The notes beneath the pieces are model-generated. The model was given only the letters and a program-made list of their open reading frames with translations, was not told the DNA's origin and made no database searches. A DNA stretch of 64,000 nucleotides from Desulfitobacterium dehalogenans ATCC 51507 (lineage in GTDB: Bacteria; Bacillota; Desulfitobacteriia; Desulfitobacteriales; Desulfitobacteriaceae). Shown here in pieces: positions 3,717 to 15,588 of this stretch; position 1 is the stretch's first letter, and each line of letters starts with the position of its first letter. Position numbers and translations under genes: made by a program. Location of the stretch: positions 2,046,001 through 2,110,000 of the forward strand of contig NC_018017.1 of the NCBI RefSeq assembly GCF_000243155.2. Reading direction: 5' to 3'.

Positions 3717-3818
3717 GCTTGGAGGTCTTTTTAGCACTTCTTTTTTTCAGAGTGGAAATTAGTTATTGCAGCTGAAGCAAAGTTTAAACTAAAAAAATAA
3801 GAGAGCGGGGAATATAAG

Positions 3819-4940
3819 ATGGAAGATATCGGAGGAGAGCAGCGGTATGACCAATCTCCAGTCAAGAAGCTTGCCATTTTAACAGGGGGCGGAGACTGCC
3901 CTGGGTTGAATGCGGTGATTCGTGCCGCTGTAAAAACAGCTTGCCATCGTGGCATAGAGGTTGTGGGGATTCAGGATGGTTTTCGGGGGGCTGTGGAAGG
4001 GGATTTCCGCCCCTTAGGACCTAAGGACGTCTCCGGTATTTTACCCCGGGGAGGAACTATTTTGGGAACCACCAACCGGGATAATCCTTTTGCCTATCCC
4101 ACACGGGTCGGAGAAGAGCGGCAGACCCAGGATCGTTCCGATGAAGTGATGGAGAGGTTTAAAGCGGAAGGAATTGATGCCCTCATCGCTATCGGAGGAG
4201 ACGGAAGCTTAAGTATCGCTTTGGAGTTTGCCAAAAAAGGGCTTAATGTGGTAGGTGTTCCCAAAACCATCGACAATGATCTGATGTGCACGGATTTGAC
4301 CTTCGGCTTTCAGACCGCTGTGGCCACTGCACAGGATGCTTTGGACCGGCTCCATACGACAGCCGAATCTCACCATCGCATCATGATTTTAGAGGTCATG
4401 GGACGATATGCCGGTTGGATCGCTCTCTATGCCGGGGTGGCAGGGGGAGCGGATGTCATCTTAATTCCGGAAATTCCTTATCAGCTTGAGAGTATCGCCA
4501 AAGCTGTCCAGGGACGAGCCCGTCTGGGGAAACACTTCAGCATCATTGTAGTGGCTGAAGGTGCGAAACCTCACGGGGGAGAAATGGTTGTGGAACGCAC
4601 TATGCCAGGGAGAACGGATCCTATTAAATTGGGTGGAATCGGGGCAAAGCTGGCAGCGGATTTAGAGAAGATCACCGATATGGAGACCCGGGTAACTGTG
4701 CTGGGGCATTTGCAGCGGGGAGGTTCTCCCATCGCTGTGGATCGGGTTCTGTCCACACGCTATGGGGTGGCTGCCGTCGAAGCCGCTTTGGATGGTGATT
4801 TTGGCATGATGGTGGCATTGCAGGGACAAGATATCGTTAGAGTGCCTATGGCAGAAGCCGTTCATAAGCTCAAGAAGGTGGAGATTGACGACCCTGTCTT
4901 AAAAGCTGCACGAAGCATGGGTATCGAATTTGGCGATTAA
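3819..4940 (+). CDS. pfkA: 6-phosphofructokinase
   Basis: Phosphorylates fructose 6-phosphate to the 1,6-bisphosphate in glycolysis. Motifs are complete: GGGDCPGLNAVIRA near residue 24, IGGDGSL near 126, PKTIDND near 148, MGRYAGW and HLQRGGSP. The Gly in GGDG is the form found in ATP-dependent enzymes, while the Lys in PKTIDND is shared with pyrophosphate-dependent ones. This combination marks the mixed (group III) PFKs; ATP use is the likelier reading. At 373 residues it is longer than PfkA of E. coli (320). Odd point: the best Shine-Dalgarno (GGAGGAG, 3831-3837) precedes an ATG at 3847 that is out of frame, so the 3819 start rests on the open frame and a weaker GCGGGG upstream. Confidence 0.9.
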   Translation: MEDIGGEQRYDQSPVKKLAILTGGGDCPGLNAVIRAAVKTACHRGIEVVGIQDGFRGAVEGDFRPLGPKDVSGILPRGGTILGTTNRDNPFAYPTRVGEERQTQDRSDEVMERFKAEGIDALIAIGGDGSLSIALEFAKKGLNVVGVPKTIDNDLMCTDLTFGFQTAVATAQDALDRLHTTAESHHRIMILEVMGRYAGWIALYAGVAGGADVILIPEIPYQLESIAKAVQGRARLGKHFSIIVVAEGAKPHGGEMVVERTMPGRTDPIKLGGIGAKLAADLEKITDMETRVTVLGHLQRGGSPIAVDRVLSTRYGVAAVEAALDGDFGMMVALQGQDIVRVPMAEAVHKLKKVEIDDPVLKAARSMGIEFGD

Positions 4941-5937: not shown

Positions 5938-6864
5938 TTGCAATATAAGGATTATTATCAAATTCTTGGTGTGGAGAAAAAGGCAACTCTCGAGGAAGTC
6001 AAAAAGGCTTATCGAAAGCTCACCAAAAAGTATCACCCGGATATTAATCCGGGCAATAAGGAAGCTGAAGAAAAGTATAAAGAGATCAATGAAGCCTACG
6101 AAGTCCTCGGAGATCCTGAAAAACGAAAGAAATATGATAGCTTTGGCAATGAATTCAACTACCAGAACGGCTATAATTTTGACCCCTCCCAATTTGGATT
6201 CGGGAATGGTCAGTTTGAATTCAAGACCACTGGAGGAGGCAATTACAGCGATTTCTTCAACCTCTTCTTTGGAGAAGGGGGCTTGGATTTAGGTAACCTC
6301 TTTGGTCAAAAAGATCCCCGATTCCGGGGAACACGTTCCCAGTTTGTTTATCCAGGAGAGGATGTTGAGTCGGAATTGCGCATTACCCTGGAAGAAGGCT
6401 TTCAAGGCGCCGAAAAACAGATATCCCTGAGAGGCAGGACCGAGCAGAAAAGTCTCTCAGTGAAAATTCCCAAGGGGATCAAAGAAGGAGAAAAGATTCG
6501 GCTCAAAGGACAAGGTGAACAAGGGGTTAATGGGGGAGAGAATGGAGATTTATATCTAACCCTTCGTTTTCATCCTCATAGTCATTATTCTCTGGAAGGG
6601 ATTAATCTCACCACAACCGTTGATATTCTCCCTTGGGATGCAGCCTTAGGGTCCGAAGTTACGGTGAAAACCCTGGACTCTACAATCAAAGTCAGAATAC
6701 CTTCCGGGATACAAACGGATAATAAGATTCGTGTCGCCGGAAAAGGGTATATCGATCGGAACGAGACGCGGGGGGACCTCTATATTAAAGTGCGAATAAT
6801 TAACCCAAGCTCCATTAGTCCCGAAATGAAGAGCCTGTTTGAAAAGTTAAAGGATCTATCCTAG
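5938..6864 (+). CDS. CbpA-type DnaJ co-chaperone
   Basis: A 308-residue Hsp40. The J domain (about residues 1-70) holds the HPD motif in YHPDINPG that triggers DnaK ATPase. A Gly/Phe-rich linker follows ([15 protein letters not shown]), then the two beta-barrel substrate-binding C-terminal domains from about residue 135. There is no Cys-rich zinc finger, so it is class B (CbpA type), not DnaJ proper. It starts with TTG at 5938 behind AGGGAGGGG. It probably shares the stress-controlled transcript of the broken hsp20 upstream. Confidence 0.88.
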
Positions 6865-6885
6865 GAGCAATAATCGGTGATGTTC

Positions 6886-8721
6886 TTACTGGATATAATT
6901 AATAGGCGTATCCTCTTTAATTCCGTAGCACTGTTTCATAAAGTAGGGCATATCATTCCAATTCCCTAGATTATAACCATAATAACTTGGAGGCACCTTT
7001 TTCAGGAGGAGCTCTCCTTTTTTTTCTCCCTCATGATATTGTTTTATGGCCTCCAGATTATAGTTCTGCGGAATGGAAGCTTGATAGTAGCCGTGAAGAG
7101 TAGTGCCGAAAACCATAACAGAAATAAGGCAGAAAAACACACCCAAACCGACTTGAATAAGCTTTATCCCGCTCCCGGAACCTTCTTCTCTAAACATTGA
7201 GTAGAGATAATGAATAAGTGCAAGGCCAAAGATCACACCTCCGGCAAGGGCGGGGAGTTTCTCCTGAAGGCTTAAGGTCAAGAAAAAGAAAGCCAGAGAT
7301 AAGTAAAGGGTATTCCGACGGAAAGCCAGGACTGAATAGAAGATAAAGACACTGAATAAGAGCAGTGAAGGAAACATGACCTTATAGGTTGCTGCAAATC
7401 GGGCATCCACAACGATCAGCATGATTTGAGCCCCTAGGGCATTGATGGTGTTGAAGAGCAGAAAAGGGTAATCCTTTTTTATCAGCATGATAACCGAGAT
7501 ATAGACTAAGGCAGAGAAATAGAGAAAAACAAAGGCAATAATACTTAACCCGTAAAAAGAATGAAGATTTTCATGAGTAAGATCAAAAGGAATCTTCTTG
7601 TACAAAAGAAGGTAGATATATCCGGTCAGGGCCGCGCATAAAAGAATGGCAATGGAGCGATTGAAGATGCGTTGTTTTCGACACATGGGTTCGCAATACC
7701 ATGTCTCCGCTGAAAAGTGTTTTTCTTGAGCAGAAGAAGTTTCAGACCGGAATTCAGATCCGGCGGTTCTTGACCATTCTGAAGAGGAGAGAGTCGCAGC
7801 TACGGATGGGGGGTCACCGGCTGGGGAGCCGGGACGGGAAAAGGCAAAAAGCCAAAAGATACAGCTAAGGCTGATGAGCATTACAAAGGGAGCCGCAGGT
7901 AAAGAGAAAATATTCGTCTTGATTAGTTCGGTTATGACATCTGTAAGAACTACCTCATTACCGGCAGTCCTTTCCCAGACTAAACGCTTTAAAGAACCGT
8001 AGCTGACCAGTATATACCCTAAGAACATGACTCCATAGAGGGGAAGAAACGTTCTAAAGGGCAGCTTTCTGCGGATAAAGGAAAGATAAACAGAGATCAT
8101 GACAGTAAAGCCGATTCCGATCATTCCTACCTGCTGAGTGGAGGAGCCGACAAAGAAGGCCAGAGCAATAAGCAATAACTTTTTACTTAGGCTTCTGGAA
8201 CCTATCCGGGTGTAGAGCAGATAAGCATATAATAGAACAAGGGCCATGGGATAGAGATAATTAAAAGCACAGGCAGCATAATAAATTGTTATATGGGCAA
8301 TTTTTAGGGGCAAAAAGAGAAAGAATAAGACAGCGCAGAGCAGGGCAATCCAGAGGGAAGGATTGTCCTTTTTCTTATGGAGAGAGGATTCGGAGAAGGT
8401 GGCCATTTTGGCCAGGATATAGACTACCGACATGAGTATAAGGGGATTGAGGATACGGAAAAACTCGATTTGCGGTTTAAGAGCCAAGACCATTGCTCCG
8501 CCGATCCAGACCCGTCCATTGGAATTCAATTCATCAAGCAGAGCTTCTGGAAGGTAATTCAGCCCGTATTGAGCATCCCGGCTGTAGTATAAATCATCGG
8601 CATAAAGGAAAATGTAACGATGAATCCAGAGCATGGCGAAAAGAAAGACCAGGAGAATCAGCCAGTCTCTCTTTGAACATCTGGAACTGGATTTTAGATA
8701 AGCATATAGATTCTTAAACAA
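6886..8721 (-). CDS. Polytopic membrane protein, DUF6056/GtrII-like
   Basis: A 611-residue protein with about a dozen membrane segments. The N-terminus has the short acidic motif YADDLYYS right after the first membrane helix, as in DUF6056 and other GT-C-like glycosyltransferases. It is divergent from and adjacent to gtrB- and gtrA-like genes, so a role in moving a sugar from a lipid carrier to a cell-surface acceptor is a fair inference. Residues of about 295-345 form an unusually polar, Ser/Gly/Pro-rich stretch between membrane helices. The start is TTG at 8721 behind GGAGTGAT. Family name given with moderate confidence. Confidence 0.65.
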   Translation of the reverse strand: MFKNLYAYLKSSSRCSKRDWLILLVFLFAMLWIHRYIFLYADDLYYSRDAQYGLNYLPEALLDELNSNGRVWIGGAMVLALKPQIEFFRILNPLILMSVVYILAKMATFSESSLHKKKDNPSLWIALLCAVLFFLFLPLKIAHITIYYAACAFNYLYPMALVLLYAYLLYTRIGSRSLSKKLLLIALAFFVGSSTQQVGMIGIGFTVMISVYLSFIRRKLPFRTFLPLYGVMFLGYILVSYGSLKRLVWERTAGNEVVLTDVITELIKTNIFSLPAAPFVMLISLSCIFWLFAFSRPGSPAGDPPSVAATLSSSEWSRTAGSEFRSETSSAQEKHFSAETWYCEPMCRKQRIFNRSIAILLCAALTGYIYLLLYKKIPFDLTHENLHSFYGLSIIAFVFLYFSALVYISVIMLIKKDYPFLLFNTINALGAQIMLIVVDARFAATYKVMFPSLLLFSVFIFYSVLAFRRNTLYLSLAFFFLTLSLQEKLPALAGGVIFGLALIHYLYSMFREEGSGSGIKLIQVGLGVFFCLISVMVFGTTLHGYYQASIPQNYNLEAIKQYHEGEKKGELLLKKVPPSYYGYNLGNWNDMPYFMKQCYGIKEDTPINYIQ

Positions 8722-10416: not shown

Positions 10417-11127
10417 GTGAACGAAAGTATACTCATTATAGAAGATGAAGTGGGAATAATTAAAATGCTAAAACGATTGTTAGATAAGGAAGGATTTCAA
10501 AAAATATGCCAGGCCGAGTCGGGTGCTGAAGCATTGAAAAAGGTTAGAGAACATAGGATTGATCTGATATTGCTTGATGTCATGCTACCTGATACAAACG
10601 GTTTTGATTTGTGTCAGCAAATTAGAGAAATATCGGATGTTCCCATTATCTTTTTGACTGCACGTACCACCGATATTGATAAATTAATCGGCTTTTCTAT
10701 GGGTGGGGATGATTACATAACGAAACCTTTTAATCCCCTTGAAGTCGCTGCCCGAATCAAGGCCATTCTACATCGTCAAAGAAAAACAATGCCAGAGATG
10801 GTACAGCTGTTTCGAACAGAGCGTTTCGTTTTGCATTATGACCAAGCTAAGTTAATTGTGGAAGGAAAAGAAGTAAATTGCCCGGCTAAGGAGTTTCAAT
10901 TACTTAAATTCATGTGCCAGCATCCCAATCAGGTTTTTAGCGTTGATCAACTATATGAAAAGGTTTGGGAAGATTACAGTATTGTGGGAAAAGAAAATAC
11001 GATTATGGTCCATATAAGTCGCCTACGTCAAAAAATCGAAAAAGATCCTAAACATCCGGAGTATTTAAAAAATGTGAGGGGATTGGGTTACATGCTAAGT
11101 AATGAAAACCAAAGGAGTCCCCAATGA
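10417..11127 (+). CDS. OmpR/PhoB-family response regulator
   Basis: A 236-residue transcription factor. The receiver domain has the acidic pair IIEDE, the phosphoacceptor Asp in LLLDVMLPD, Thr in FLTAR and Lys in YITKPF. A winged-helix DNA-binding domain follows from about residue 135 and ends in VRGLGYML. The GTG at 10417 sits after GAGGAGGG; a longer in-frame ATG at 10297 lacks this site and adds a non-family tail. Its stop overlaps the ATG of the kinase gene (ATGA), showing translational coupling. The gene pair is more AT-rich than the cassette after it. Targets may include the adjacent peptide/ABC cassette. Confidence 0.88.
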   Translation: MNESILIIEDEVGIIKMLKRLLDKEGFQKICQAESGAEALKKVREHRIDLILLDVMLPDTNGFDLCQQIREISDVPIIFLTARTTDIDKLIGFSMGGDDYITKPFNPLEVAARIKAILHRQRKTMPEMVQLFRTERFVLHYDQAKLIVEGKEVNCPAKEFQLLKFMCQHPNQVFSVDQLYEKVWEDYSIVGKENTIMVHISRLRQKIEKDPKHPEYLKNVRGLGYMLSNENQRSPQ

Positions 11128-12190
11128 AATTAGAAACCAAAATTTCATTGATATTAATAATTATCTTTTTAATCATAGGCGCTATTTTTTTATTACGGGA
11201 TTTTCAGCCCTTAACTTATTGAACATCTCTTTGGGAATTAATGGGTTGGTGACATATGTTTTATTCCCACTACTATTCATTGGAATGCTTATTCTGATTG
11301 GACTTGTTATTGACCGCCAAATCAGGAAGCCTCTTTTCTTTTTTATACGCTGGATTGATCAATTATCACTTGGGGTTTTTAAAATGCCTAATACAATAAA
11401 GAATTTTCCCTTAAATAAGATGAGGTTTAGCCTGTTTTTGGAACTTAAATCAAAGCTTGATGGTTTAACATATCAACTCAACGCAACAGAGAAAGAACGA
11501 AAAGAACTTGAAAAAACTAGGAGGAACTGGACCTCTGGAGTGACACATGACTTAAAAACGCCGTTATCATACATTAAGGGTTACGCAGCCATGCTTCGCT
11601 CCGAACATAAATGGAATGAAGAAGAGATTAAGGAATTTGCTAAAATTATTGAAGAAAAATCATTGTATATGGAGCAGTTAATTGATGATTTAAGTGTTGT
11701 TTATGAGTTTGATAAAATGCAAATCCCTTTGGATTTACGCACTATAAATCTGGTCACGTTTGTAAAAAATGTTTTGGAAGATCTCCGTCAGTATCCGATG
11801 GCTAATGACTATCCTATTCATTTAAACGTCAAGGATGAAGGTGATATTTTATTATCTTTTGATCAGACATTATTAAAGAGATCATTAGAAAATTTCATTA
11901 TGAATGCTATTTATCATAACCCCCATGAAACAACGATTACTGTCTCCATAGAAACAAGAGAAGGTTCAACCTTAATAGAAATTAAAGACGATGGCATCGG
12001 AATGGATGATAAAACAATTCAACAATTATTTAATCGATATTACCGAGGGACGACGACGGACAAGTCCCATCTCGGGTCAGGGTTGGGAATGTCCATTGCT
12101 AAACAGTTTATTGAAAAACAAGGGGGGCAGATTAAAGTCGAAAGTGAGCCGAATAGAGGAACGAAGATAAAAATTTTATTCCCTTTATAA
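11124..12190 (+). CDS. Sensor histidine kinase with apparent frameshift at a T7 tract
   Basis: The natural start is ATG 11124, behind AGGAG and overlapping the regulator's stop. That frame gives MKLETKISLILIIIFLIIG, a classic first membrane helix, but stops at TGA 11220. The rest of the kinase lies in the -1 frame: a second helix around 11255-11310, a linker/HAMP-like stretch, phospho-acceptor His in SGVTHDLKTPLSYIKGYA, N-box IMNAIYHN, G1 IKDDGIGM, and G2 GSGLGMSIAKQF. One extra T in the run at 11185-11191 would join them. An ATG at 11102 in the downstream frame gives a full-length product but an atypical N-terminus without this helix. Decayed gene, slippage site or sequence error are all possible. 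Confidence 0.7.
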
Positions 12191-12207
12191 AATTAAGGTT
12201 CCGTTAA

Positions 12208-12237
12208 GACACCATTTCAATGGTGTTTATTTTTTTG
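12208..12237 (+). terminator. Terminator after the two-component genes
   Basis: Hairpin ACACCAT-TTCA-ATGGTGT followed by TTATTTTTTT. Confidence 0.85.
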
Positions 12238-12308
12238 CCCTATACTAGGTTTAGAAACTAATTGTTCGCGGTGGGCCATTCATTACTAAATGGGAAGGAA
12301 TGAAACAA

Positions 12309-12428
12309 ATGGAAAAACCTTTATATAAGCAAAAAAGGAAAGACCTGAATCAAATTATCAAAGGGATGTTCACTATGCTGGAAATGTTCTCAACAGATGT
12401 TGAATTAGGTGGGTGGTGCAGATGTTAA
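12309..12428 (+). CDS. 39-residue peptide, candidate bacteriocin/RiPP precursor or coupled leader
   Basis: ATG 12309 lies nine bases after GGGAAGGA (an ATG at 12300 is too close). The frame runs 39 codons and its TAA overlaps the ATG of the ABC ATPase gene at 12422, a coupling arrangement. The peptide is basic at the front (begins MEKPLYKQKRKDL), amphipathic in the middle (GMFTMLEMF) and ends ELGGWCRC, with a GG pair before a Cys-containing tail. No Sec signal peptide. I recognise no family. Position directly before a bacteriocin-type ABC set suggests a secreted or self-immunity-related peptide, but a regulatory leader is equally possible. Confidence 0.45.
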   Translation: MEKPLYKQKRKDLNQIIKGMFTMLEMFSTDVELGGWCRC

Positions 12429-13102
12429 TTGAAGCTCAAGACATTTCAGTAGCAATTGGCGGGCGGCTTGTGCTTGACGGTGAGTCCCTTCGTTGCAAGC
12501 CCGGTATTATGACAGCTCTCGTTGGCGCGAGTGGATCTGGAAAGACCACACTCCTACATTGCCTCGGATTGTTGCTCCCGGTGGATAAAGGAAGCATCCT
12601 GATTGACGGGAAAGATGTCACAAGGTACGGTACCGCAGCACGACGTCGGTTCTGGCGCGATCACGCGGCATTCGTACTTCAGGATTATGGAATTATGGAT
12701 GAGGAGTCGGTTGCCTTCAATATCACTATGCAGGCAAGCGTCATTGGAAGACGTGTCTCGGGAAACAAAGAACAGTTGATACAATCACTCGAACAGACAG
12801 GTCTTAAAGGTAGGGAAAATGAATTGGCCGGGCACCTGAGTGGAGGCGAGAAACAGCGTCTTGCTTTATCTCGTGCCATTTACAAGGATGCCGACATCCT
12901 GTTTGTTGATGAGCCAACTGCTTCACTGGATGCAACTAACCGGCGTATGGTCATCGAACTGCTTGAGGACTTCGCTGTGCGTGGCCGGACGGTCATTGTG
13001 TCAACACATGATTCCGAGATGATCGATGCGTGCAGCGCCATTCATCAGGTTGGTTCCGAAGCTCGTCACATTAACTATAGAACACAAGGAGGATACTTAT
13101 GA
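12422..13102 (+). CDS. ABC transporter ATPase, lactococcin-972-group bacteriocin export type
   Basis: A 226-residue ATPase with Walker A GASGSGKTT near residue 36, Q-loop in FVLQDYGIMDEE near 87, signature LSGGE near 140, Walker B ILFVDEPTASLD near 160 and H-loop STHD. The Q-loop region and short length resemble the MacB-like ATPases of the lactococcin 972 group. ATG 12422 is chosen over GTG 12413/12416 because it overlaps the peptide's stop and follows GGTGGGTGG. It is followed closely by a membrane-anchored protein and a large polytopic protein, its likely membrane partner. Confidence 0.8.
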   Translation: MLIEAQDISVAIGGRLVLDGESLRCKPGIMTALVGASGSGKTTLLHCLGLLLPVDKGSILIDGKDVTRYGTAARRRFWRDHAAFVLQDYGIMDEESVAFNITMQASVIGRRVSGNKEQLIQSLEQTGLKGRENELAGHLSGGEKQRLALSRAIYKDADILFVDEPTASLDATNRRMVIELLEDFAVRGRTVIVSTHDSEMIDACSAIHQVGSEARHINYRTQGGYL

Positions 13103-13458
13103 AATCAACGTCTAAGATTATTATCAGTGTCATTGTTGGCTTACTCTTGTTAGTTGTAGCATTTGCGTTTATAAATGGTTGGATAACGGCATCACCAAAA
13201 GACACCCACCCGCCATGCGACCAGCTACCGACTGTTACGGAGGTCACTGCTGCTTTGGACAATCACGAAAATCTCGCCAAGGAAATAGAAAAGCTGGGAG
13301 ATGGGATTAAAGTGGAAGTGGGCAAGCCGTGTCCGGATCATCAGGAACGTGGGCTCGTCTTGGTGAGATATGATTCGAAATCCGAGCGTGATGCCATAAA
13401 CAAACTGCTTTCCCGCAGTGAAGGATTTGGGGTTCCAGTTCATTTGGAGAAGCGCTAA
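13099..13458 (+). CDS. Small membrane-anchored extracytoplasmic protein, unknown
   Basis: A 119-residue protein with one N-terminal membrane helix (about residues 8-28) and a soluble outer domain holding two Cys, in PPCDQ and KPCPDH, that could form a disulfide. No family recognised. Its ATG overlaps the ABC ATPase stop by four bases, so the two are translationally linked. A role as an accessory or immunity protein for the cassette is inference from position only. Confidence 0.7.
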   Translation: MKSTSKIIISVIVGLLLLVVAFAFINGWITASPKDTHPPCDQLPTVTEVTAALDNHENLAKEIEKLGDGIKVEVGKPCPDHQERGLVLVRYDSKSERDAINKLLSRSEGFGVPVHLEKR

Positions 13459-13529
13459 CGCAAGCTTTCAACTGGTTAGCCCCAAAATTGTCTCCCGCAT
13501 TTAAAAAGAAAGAGGGGTGAAAAAGAGAG

Positions 13530-15509
13530 ATGAATATGTATAAACGTATCATAGTGGCTGTTTCGGTAGCGTTGTTTACTTTACTTGCACTGTTGGCCGC
13601 AATCATTACCGACCTAAATGATCGAGACTTCCCACAGGCTATTGGGAGCGAAAGTAGGCTTAATATTAGCTTCAACGAATCGGGGTACTCTATCACTGAA
13701 GCGTTTTCGAAGTTAGAAGAACTTGATACACGCCTAAAGCTTGGACTGGTCAAGATCGCCCCAGATCTGGCCAGCGAAGGAGATGGCCAGATTTTTGCAA
13801 CGCTTAACGATGATGGGCTGCCCGATAAATTTACTTGGTTTAGTGGCGACGATACAGGCAAAATTGTTGGCAAAGATCGGCTTGCCAATTCCTATCCCGA
13901 TGGGTTATATCTTGTGACTGGCAATACTGCTCGTTTGAATGAGTTTGCGGACACCCTGAATGATGCGGGGGTAAAGGTTAGCCGCAGGGATGCCTCAATC
14001 TTGGATAGTCTTGTATTCGTGGTGCAGGAAAGAGGATTTACTACCGCAATTCTTGCATCGCTTGCGCTGATTTCATCGCTTGCACTGTTCTGGTTGTCAG
14101 TGAGGGCGCGGGGACGTGCACTTCAGGTTCTGGGCGGGTCTCCGACTATGCGGATTCAGATGCAGGACCTCACAGAGTTTGGTGGGGCGCTCTTTGTTTC
14201 AGCGGGGACAGTGGCTATGGTTGCAGCAATCTATGTGGGTGTTTTTCATGGCTGGATGTACGTCAGTACCTTCCTCAAAGTACTGATTAGTCTTCAAGTC
14301 GTTGTTATTGCCATATCCATACTTGCTGCACTTATTATGTCAGCCTCTGTGTGGCCGAGTGCTGTCATGCTTGCCACTAGACAACCGGCTGTAAAAAGCC
14401 TGCGTTCGGTGGCGATTGTGATCCAGGTGCTAACGTTCGTTTTAGTGGTGGCTTTTGCTACCCCTGCTTGGTCTGCATATAAACACTCGTCTGCTAAGGC
14501 AGCTGAAATGGCGCAATGGGAGAGACTTGCAGACCAAGTATCAATTGTGTTCGCAACAGACATTGACGAAATGGATCGCATGGAGCCAATGATTGGCGAG
14601 ATGGTAAAGGATGCGGAATCGATTGAGGTAGCAGCACTTTCCTATACTTACACCAAGGAAATGTGGCCATCGGTTAATTTCGACGAGTACTCCGCCATCT
14701 CTTTCGTAAATCAGCGTTGGCTTGACTTAGTCACTATGGGTGCGAAGCAGCCGGTTGTAATGCCTATTTCGCACCACAACATGTCAGAAGATCTTGTTCA
14801 TGAAATTCAAGAGGTGATAGATATTTTGTCGAGAGAAGAGCATTCCGAGAATCTATTCGAACAATTACAATTCCTCCAACCAGTTGAGGGGTCTCGACTT
14901 CCAGTGGCTCAAGGGGGAGGGGGCGAAAGTCTCCACTTTGGAGATGATATCCTGCTCGCTGTCGTTCCCTCGCTGTACGACACCTTTAATGATTCTGCCT
15001 TGACATCCATGATCTCGTGTAACAACATAGTGTTCACTGGTGTATCTGCTACGCAACAATTATTAGAACGACACAGCCTTGATGTACAGGCGCTACGCGA
15101 TCTTGGCATCAAAGGTGAACTGAAAGTTGTTTACATTGCCGAAGAGGGCATACTCCAAGCCCAGTTTGCAGCATACCTTGTATGGATGCAGAATCTTTCG
15201 CTGATTGCACTGGCGGTTGCTTTCAGTGTTGCTACTGCAATCAGTACATTGATCACCGCAACATTACAGGCGAAGCGTGACTTCCCATTGCGGTTGGCAG
15301 GGCGGTCTTGGATGCTAATCCTTCAGAGCCGCGTGACCAAGGAACTGCTTGTGGGGATAATACTCGTGATTATCGTCGTCCTACTACAAAGACCTGACGC
15401 GATAGGAATTGTACTTGTGACTGCGGCATATGGATTGCTTATTGTTCCGCTGTCCCATCTGTTTGCTGTACATTGGTGTTTCAATGGAGTCAGTAAACGT
15501 AGGATTTGA
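13530..15509 (+). CDS. Large integral membrane protein, bacteriocin-associated (DUF1430-like)
   Basis: A 659-residue protein: a first membrane helix at about 8-28, an extracytoplasmic domain to about 165, four helices at roughly 170-310, a second large outer domain to about 535, then three helices to the end. This order matches the bacteriocin-associated 7-TM protein paired with lactococcin-972-type ATPases, and it acts as the ABC permease. RBS is AGAGGGGTG before 13530. Spacing of 72 bases from the gene before and no terminator suggest one operon. Family assignment is from topology and neighbours and is moderate. Confidence 0.62.
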   Translation: MNMYKRIIVAVSVALFTLLALLAAIITDLNDRDFPQAIGSESRLNISFNESGYSITEAFSKLEELDTRLKLGLVKIAPDLASEGDGQIFATLNDDGLPDKFTWFSGDDTGKIVGKDRLANSYPDGLYLVTGNTARLNEFADTLNDAGVKVSRRDASILDSLVFVVQERGFTTAILASLALISSLALFWLSVRARGRALQVLGGSPTMRIQMQDLTEFGGALFVSAGTVAMVAAIYVGVFHGWMYVSTFLKVLISLQVVVIAISILAALIMSASVWPSAVMLATRQPAVKSLRSVAIVIQVLTFVLVVAFATPAWSAYKHSSAKAAEMAQWERLADQVSIVFATDIDEMDRMEPMIGEMVKDAESIEVAALSYTYTKEMWPSVNFDEYSAISFVNQRWLDLVTMGAKQPVVMPISHHNMSEDLVHEIQEVIDILSREEHSENLFEQLQFLQPVEGSRLPVAQGGGGESLHFGDDILLAVVPSLYDTFNDSALTSMISCNNIVFTGVSATQQLLERHSLDVQALRDLGIKGELKVVYIAEEGILQAQFAAYLVWMQNLSLIALAVAFSVATAISTLITATLQAKRDFPLRLAGRSWMLILQSRVTKELLVGIILVIIVVLLQRPDAIGIVLVTAAYGLLIVPLSHLFAVHWCFNGVSKRRI

Positions 15510-15538
15510 TTGAATATTGGTATAAAAGTTAAACATAG

Positions 15539-15588
15539 AACAGAGTGAGGGATCTCAGCATGAGAATCCCACACTCTGTTCTTCTTTT
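15539..15588 (+). terminator. Terminator after the peptide/ABC cassette
   Basis: Stem AACAGAGTG / CACTCTGTT with inner GGGAT / ATCCC pairing, followed by CTTCTTTT. Confidence 0.85.

Follow-up and report, generated by a model that had tools for sequence, protein, structure and literature searches.

What is the 39-codon open reading frame (sORF) that stands directly in front of an ABC transporter operon in Desulfitobacterium dehalogenans, and what does the operon do? The stretch of 64,000 nucleotides analysed here (the window) holds genes for this peptide, an ABC ATPase, an anchored protein of 119 residues (p119) and a permease, preceded by the genes of a two-component system (Table 1). An earlier note had described this architecture correctly: by their coordinates and hairpin z-scores the four reading frames, the flanking terminators and the two-component pair are all real, the small gene overlaps the ATPase start and the ATPase gene overlaps that of p119, which has an N-terminal helix and two cysteines. 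The sORF stops 7 nt inside the ATPase gene, the ATPase and p119 genes share 4 nt, and 71 nt separate p119 from the permease. The interpretation offered there holds in part. The connection to lactococcin-972 and the option of a regulatory leader stand, whereas a different export or self-protection system with its own peptide does not, since the peptide consists of a truncated precursor signal sequence and permease-tail DNA.

Table 1. Features of the locus in the 64,000-nt window
Feature	Position	Strand	Basis
OmpR/VanR-type response regulator, GTG start VNESILIIEDE	10417..11127	+	PF00072 + PF00486
Histidine kinase, two TM helices + short outer loop	11102..12190	+	PF00512 + PF02518
Direct repeat TTAAG-N6-TTAAG, likely response-regulator site (predicted)	12193..12208	+	Conserved in 11 aligned two-component loci
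Hairpin + T7, kinase-gene terminator overlapping promoter	12207..12228	+	z -2.65
-10 element TATACT, inferred promoter	12241..12246	+	Alignment of two-component loci
sORF Shine-Dalgarno AAGGA	12295-12299	+	Ten bases ahead of ATG
sORF, 39 aa	12309-12428	+	Open reading frame, 7-nt overlap with ATPase gene
sORF codons 1-28, relic of lactococcin-972 precursor signal-peptide N-terminus	12309..12392	+	Alignment to precursors L020-L023, L028, L051
sORF codons 29-39 + stop, relic of permease 3' end (shifted frame) + ATPase RBS/start	12393..12428	+	L021 permease-tail paralogue; L008 permease-ATPase junction
ABC ATPase, 226 aa	12422..13102	+	TIGR03608 closest
p119, single N-terminal TM + small outer alpha/beta domain, Cys40/Cys78	13099..13458	+	Present in 20/20 aligned loci
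ABC permease, 659 aa, two large outer domains	13530..15509	+	Distant TIGR01654 relative
Strong intrinsic terminator	15538..15588 (hairpin 15538-15581)	+	-28.2 kcal/mol, z -5.9

Sequence comparison makes it nearly certain that the sORF is not a new bacteriocin gene but the deletion scar of a lactococcin-972-type locus. The signal peptide of the related locus L028 begins MKKILYRQKRKPLTRMIKVTLAALAM, and the window sORF begins MEKPLYKQKRKDLNQIIKGMFTMLEM. Compared with lactococcin-972 precursors, the scar peptide beats all 500 of its own shuffles in 12 of 14 loci; the exceptions are L013, with 1 of 500 shuffles as good, and L026, with 22. Locus L021 carries both a bacteriocin gene and a scar, the 5' regions of which align over 128 nt, leader included. 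The scar diverges after GTCC, and beyond this point its counterpart within the same locus is the 3' end of the permease gene together with the beginning of an ATPase remnant. Similarly, in L008, where the permease still lies ahead of the ATPase, the junction GTCGAATTTGATCGGAGGTG..ATG closely resembles the second half of the scar. Because the two halves map to the precursor and to the permease tail, the scar is the joint of a deletion that ran from a bacteriocin gene into the tail of the permease copy behind it; together with the bacteriocin kept in six relatives, this mapping marks descent from a lactococcin-972 locus. A permease fragment after the bacteriocin (L021, L051) and ATPase remnants after the permease surround the scar, showing that the ancestor was a tandem array. 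The gap between p119 and permease holds a remnant of a second bacteriocin leader, with Shine-Dalgarno sequence and first codons, in L021 (5684-5985) and also in L020, L023 and L028. In L008, a Thermacetogenium-labelled MAG, duplicate 'MTENxxRYKIIHIGML' reading frames (3769-4224 and 12935-13690) and a p119 remnant (6681-6961) flank the operon, a further sign of tandem duplication.

Taken by itself, the ELGGWCRC ending next to an ABC transporter could suggest that the adjoining transporter secretes the peptide as an active bacteriocin or pheromone, with a leader of the double-glycine type and a tail containing Cys, and the earlier note had listed this tail as a feature. The comparison dissolves it. 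GGTGGGTGG is the ribosome-binding region of the ATPase and TGCAGATGT spans its start codon, so the GG, W and C codons coincide with signals for the next gene. Among relatives the sORF ends in GGGANVN (L013 and L014) or GSGANVN (L015) after one-base indels, and in GEQYKC in L050 (permease identity 91%); all four variant frames still stop a short way into the ATPase gene, where translational coupling needs them to end. The Pfam domains of the ATPase are ABC_tran and related P-loop ATPase domains only, with no peptidase domain found; a conserved GG leader and core is lacking, as is the peptidase-containing exporter of double-glycine peptides. The tail arises by chance from the ribosome-binding site and start codon of the ATPase and is not selected as peptide. 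As the sequence moreover derives from a bacteriocin signal and a permease tail, a secreted product is hardly credible.

To place the scar in its family context, we collected related loci from a phylum sample, which gave three close and one distant locus, and from a scan of named genomes, which gave 17; L027 is the same stretch as the phylum match L003/L008 and was counted once, and L050, L051 and L052 were added by further family searches. Each locus counted once, the window included and the distant L011 left out, 23 loci were classified. Twelve, among them the window, are of a two-component type with the order ATPase - p119 - permease; they come from Lederbergia, Brevibacillus, Cytobacillus, Caldibacillus, Niallia, Ornithinibacillus, Aliibacillus, Tissierella and others, and from a strain labelled 'Bacillus subtilis'. 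Six (L020-L023, L028, L051) carry an intact lactococcin-972 precursor upstream of the scar and no two-component system, the precursors scoring about 41-43 bits on PF09683 in L020, L022, L023 and L028 (cut-off 22) and passing in L021 and L051 as well. The remaining five (L024, L052, L008, L009, L010) have neither, and in L008, L009 and L010 the permease precedes the ATPase. The bacteriocin is present in 0/12 genomes with the two-component system versus 6/11 without (Fisher 0.005, kinship ignored), and none of the 23 loci combines the two. The later-fetched L050 and L051 fell into these two types, a consistency check for which no expectation was recorded beforehand. The ABC set of L052 is 66% identical; sORF, bacteriocin and window kinase all lack a match in this locus, and only a weak response-regulator match (29%) lies upstream.

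The distribution of the operon is patchy, as the permease is absent from all 60 relatives of the window genome examined, and none of its relatives was found in the plasmid or the viral collection. One might therefore regard the locus as a decaying, non-functional relic island moving among Bacilli, a reading to which a frameshift in the window kinase also lends itself. It is improbable: ATPase, p119 and permease are intact in loci of many genera, the permease evolves at an omega of about 0.2-0.4, and the promoter block is conserved.

The ABC proteins point to the same family as the scar, at a distance. The best NCBIfam model of the ATPase is TIGR03608 of the lactococcin-972 group (180 bits, cut-off 254.9), and the sole notable NCBIfam match of the permease, which has no Pfam match, is a partial one to TIGR01654 (24.7 bits, cut-off 189). 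That both lie far under the curated cut-offs counts against the assignment, but the same is true beside intact bacteriocins: the ATPase of L028 reaches 180.7 bits on TIGR03608, likewise under the cut-off, and the permeases of L022 (24.8 bits) and L028 (no match) do no better on TIGR01654. The p119 protein occurs in 20/20 aligned loci; like the 39-residue peptide it matches no Pfam or NCBIfam family over cut-off, and for p119 this speaks against membership in the YxeA family. AlphaFold models its outer domain with a pLDDT >90, and neither the comparison with solved structures (none below E 0.001) nor a profile search gave a match; the permease model is of low confidence (pLDDT 59.8). In the p119 proteins of L009 (7603-7953) and L010 (7078-7425) both conserved cysteines are gone together, with Tyr and Phe instead. 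Such joint loss is the pattern expected of a disulphide and suggests that the Cys40/Cys78-type pair forms one in the other p119 proteins. We infer that p119 is an anchored, as yet unclassified third subunit of the ABC module with an accessory or signal-modulating role.

How does the locus compare with known systems? In the lcn972 operon of pBL1, orf2 and orf3 follow the order permease, then ATPase. Lcn972 binds lipid II, and orf2-orf3 is a putative immunity ABC transporter [PMC4055356]. The lcn972-orf2-orf3 operon (PF09683, TIGR01653, TIGR01654, TIGR03608) shares with the window locus the deduced ancestral order bacteriocin - permease - ATPase, and relatives of the window pair an intact PF09683 precursor with a window-type ABC set whose ATPase has TIGR03608 as best model. 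Unlike this operon, the window locus has a 28-codon relic in place of the bacteriocin, a permuted gene order, an added p119, a two-component system in front and ABC proteins under the curated cut-offs; an intact PF09683 precursor with a Sec signal and hits over the TIGR03608 and TIGR01654 cut-offs are all lacking in the window, and in the window genome, which has no PF09683 precursor over cut-off, the signal N-terminus alone remains. A precedent for such loss is streptococcin B, as scbBC occurs without scbA in 27.5% of pneumococci; no B or C protein of lactococcin-972-like loci is reported to have a verified function [PMC11796350]. In both cases immunity or transport genes outlive the bacteriocin; the streptococcin B locus has a ComR-type regulator, whereas the window has a two-component system and a scar that is kept across genera and probably translated. 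In Lactococcus lactis, YsaDCB/TCS-G, which comprises a two-component system, an ABC transporter and the secreted YsaD, protects against Lcn972, and YsaD, a protein of 119 aa, seems to modulate signalling [PMC7438565]. The window locus resembles this BceAB-like system by architecture, with a two-component system, an ABC pair and a small anchored protein. An adjacent two-component system with an intramembrane-sensing-like kinase, its topology read from sequence, is present in 12 loci, but the permease, having TIGR01654 similarity only and no Pfam match, is a TIGR01654 relative and not BceB. The module may thus work like a Bce-type detoxification module while not being a member of that family.

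The response regulator adjoins the operon in 12 loci including the window and is 80-93% identical across the 11 relatives, and the kinases of relatives show a short loop on the outer side between two hydrophobic helices, apparently like kinases that partner peptide-sensing ABC transporters. The two-component genes have a GC content of about 35%, compared with 46-50% for the ABC genes in the window, L012, L013, L015 and L016, and 31% compared with 39% in L025; from this contrast the two halves are probably of different origins. Between kinase and sORF, 11 aligned loci have in common the direct repeat of TTAAG, a T7-tailed hairpin and a -10 element that reads TATACT in most of them and TATAAT in L025 (Tissierella); the first half-site is TTAAG or a TTAAGA-type variant, Tissierella included. 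The conserved block suggests that the operon promoter depends on the response regulator. Autoregulation of the regulator gene was considered and is unsupported, as the exact TTAAG-N6-TTAAG occurs once in the window and the region upstream of the regulator gene has no conserved block except its ribosome-binding site. Read from the conserved start at 11124, the window kinase is frameshifted within 11124-11222, at a T7 tract where 10 relatives carry one base more; the cause may be an assembly error in the homopolymer, phase variation of the slippage type or real inactivation.

Although a relic by origin, the sORF is kept. An in-frame version precedes the ATPase in 10 of the 11 other two-component loci and in five of the six bacteriocin-bearing loci, a recurrence beyond chance that bears out the conservation upstream of this ATPase type for which the earlier note had asked. 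We estimated omega for codons 1-32 in ten sequences by a grid scan in IQ-TREE with the permease tree fixed. The likelihood peaks at 0.4 (2dlnL 15.9 against omega 1; largest of 60 null simulations 5.6), at 0.4-0.5 with L050 added (2dlnL 12.9) and, more weakly, at 0.5 in the seven indel-free sequences (2dlnL 5.4), while in the two alternative frames the peaks lie at 0.7 and 1 and the selection signal is absent. A ratio near 1 in relatives keeping the ABC genes, named in the earlier note as the result that would speak against the peptide, was thus not found. The frame is under selection, and the constraint indicates that the sORF probably undergoes translation, its likeliest role being that of a leader coupled to the ATPase. 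An RNA attenuator is not supported: leader and sORF fold unremarkably (z 0.03), with no structure hiding the ATPase start.

The same constraint raises the question whether the residues themselves are selected. The truncated signal peptide could have been exapted as a micropeptide with its own membrane-proximal or regulatory role on transporter or kinase; its omega is like that of variable permease segments (about 0.4), each of the three indels within codons 1-32 has a length divisible by three, and the basic N-terminus is retained. Yet the sORF is dispensable, given that L025 keeps two-component and ABC genes without it and L020, the sixth bacteriocin-bearing locus, has 16 codons left; the L026 copy is diverged and has a GTG start, the C-terminal frame differs among relatives, and the sORF tree has about double the length of the permease tree. 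This makes the exapted micropeptide rather unlikely. Equally tentative is the idea that a truncated bacteriocin signal sequence was recruited as a conserved micropeptide controlling expression or activity of its former weapon's immunity transporter.

We consider it quite probable that a lactococcin-972-type tandem operon acquired the scar and a permuted gene order, lost its bacteriocin and became a two-component-linked inducible immunity transporter. The ancestor was a tandemly duplicated operon of bacteriocin - permease - ATPase - p119. A deletion fused the first ~28 bacteriocin codons to the last bases of the next permease copy, leaving the 39-codon sORF before the ATPase, and because the downstream second permease copy survived, the gene order became ATPase - p119 - permease. 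In the window lineage the intact bacteriocin was lost later, and in front now stands a two-component system whose sensor kinase has a short loop. With the toxin gene long since deleted and the scar kept open before the transporter beside a two-component sensor, the locus looks like a former weapon turned into inducible armour, and the operon is likely a bacteriocin self-protection transporter that confers inducible resistance without the weapon. Kinase and transporter would sense a bacteriocin acting on the envelope, probably a lipid II binder of the lactococcin-972 kind; the regulator would bind TTAAG-N6-TTAAG and switch on sORF, ATPase, p119 and permease; ribosomes would load at the strong sORF Shine-Dalgarno sequence and begin anew at the ATPase start that overlaps the sORF; and the transporter would remove or shield the bacteriocin, with p119 as accessory or signal-modulating subunit. 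Besides the low ABC scores, four observations count against this explanation: the kinase frameshift in the assembly, the permease tree, which does not root the two-component group, the absence of an RNA structure over the ATPase start, and an sORF omega of about 0.4, below what a pure coupling leader predicts.

On the best reading, what is new here is an ABC immunity module of the lactococcin-972 type that has a permuted gene order, no weapon and an anchored third subunit of 119 residues, and that is transcribed from a conserved, response-regulator-like promoter. It would provide a stepwise sequence record, its intermediates present in living genomes, of how a weapon locus becomes a defence locus linked to a sensor. 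It also advises caution, as a well-placed small reading frame before an ABC transporter may be a deletion scar and not a new bacteriocin, and it offers a direct test case for orphan immunity to lipid II-binding lactococcin-972-like bacteriocins.
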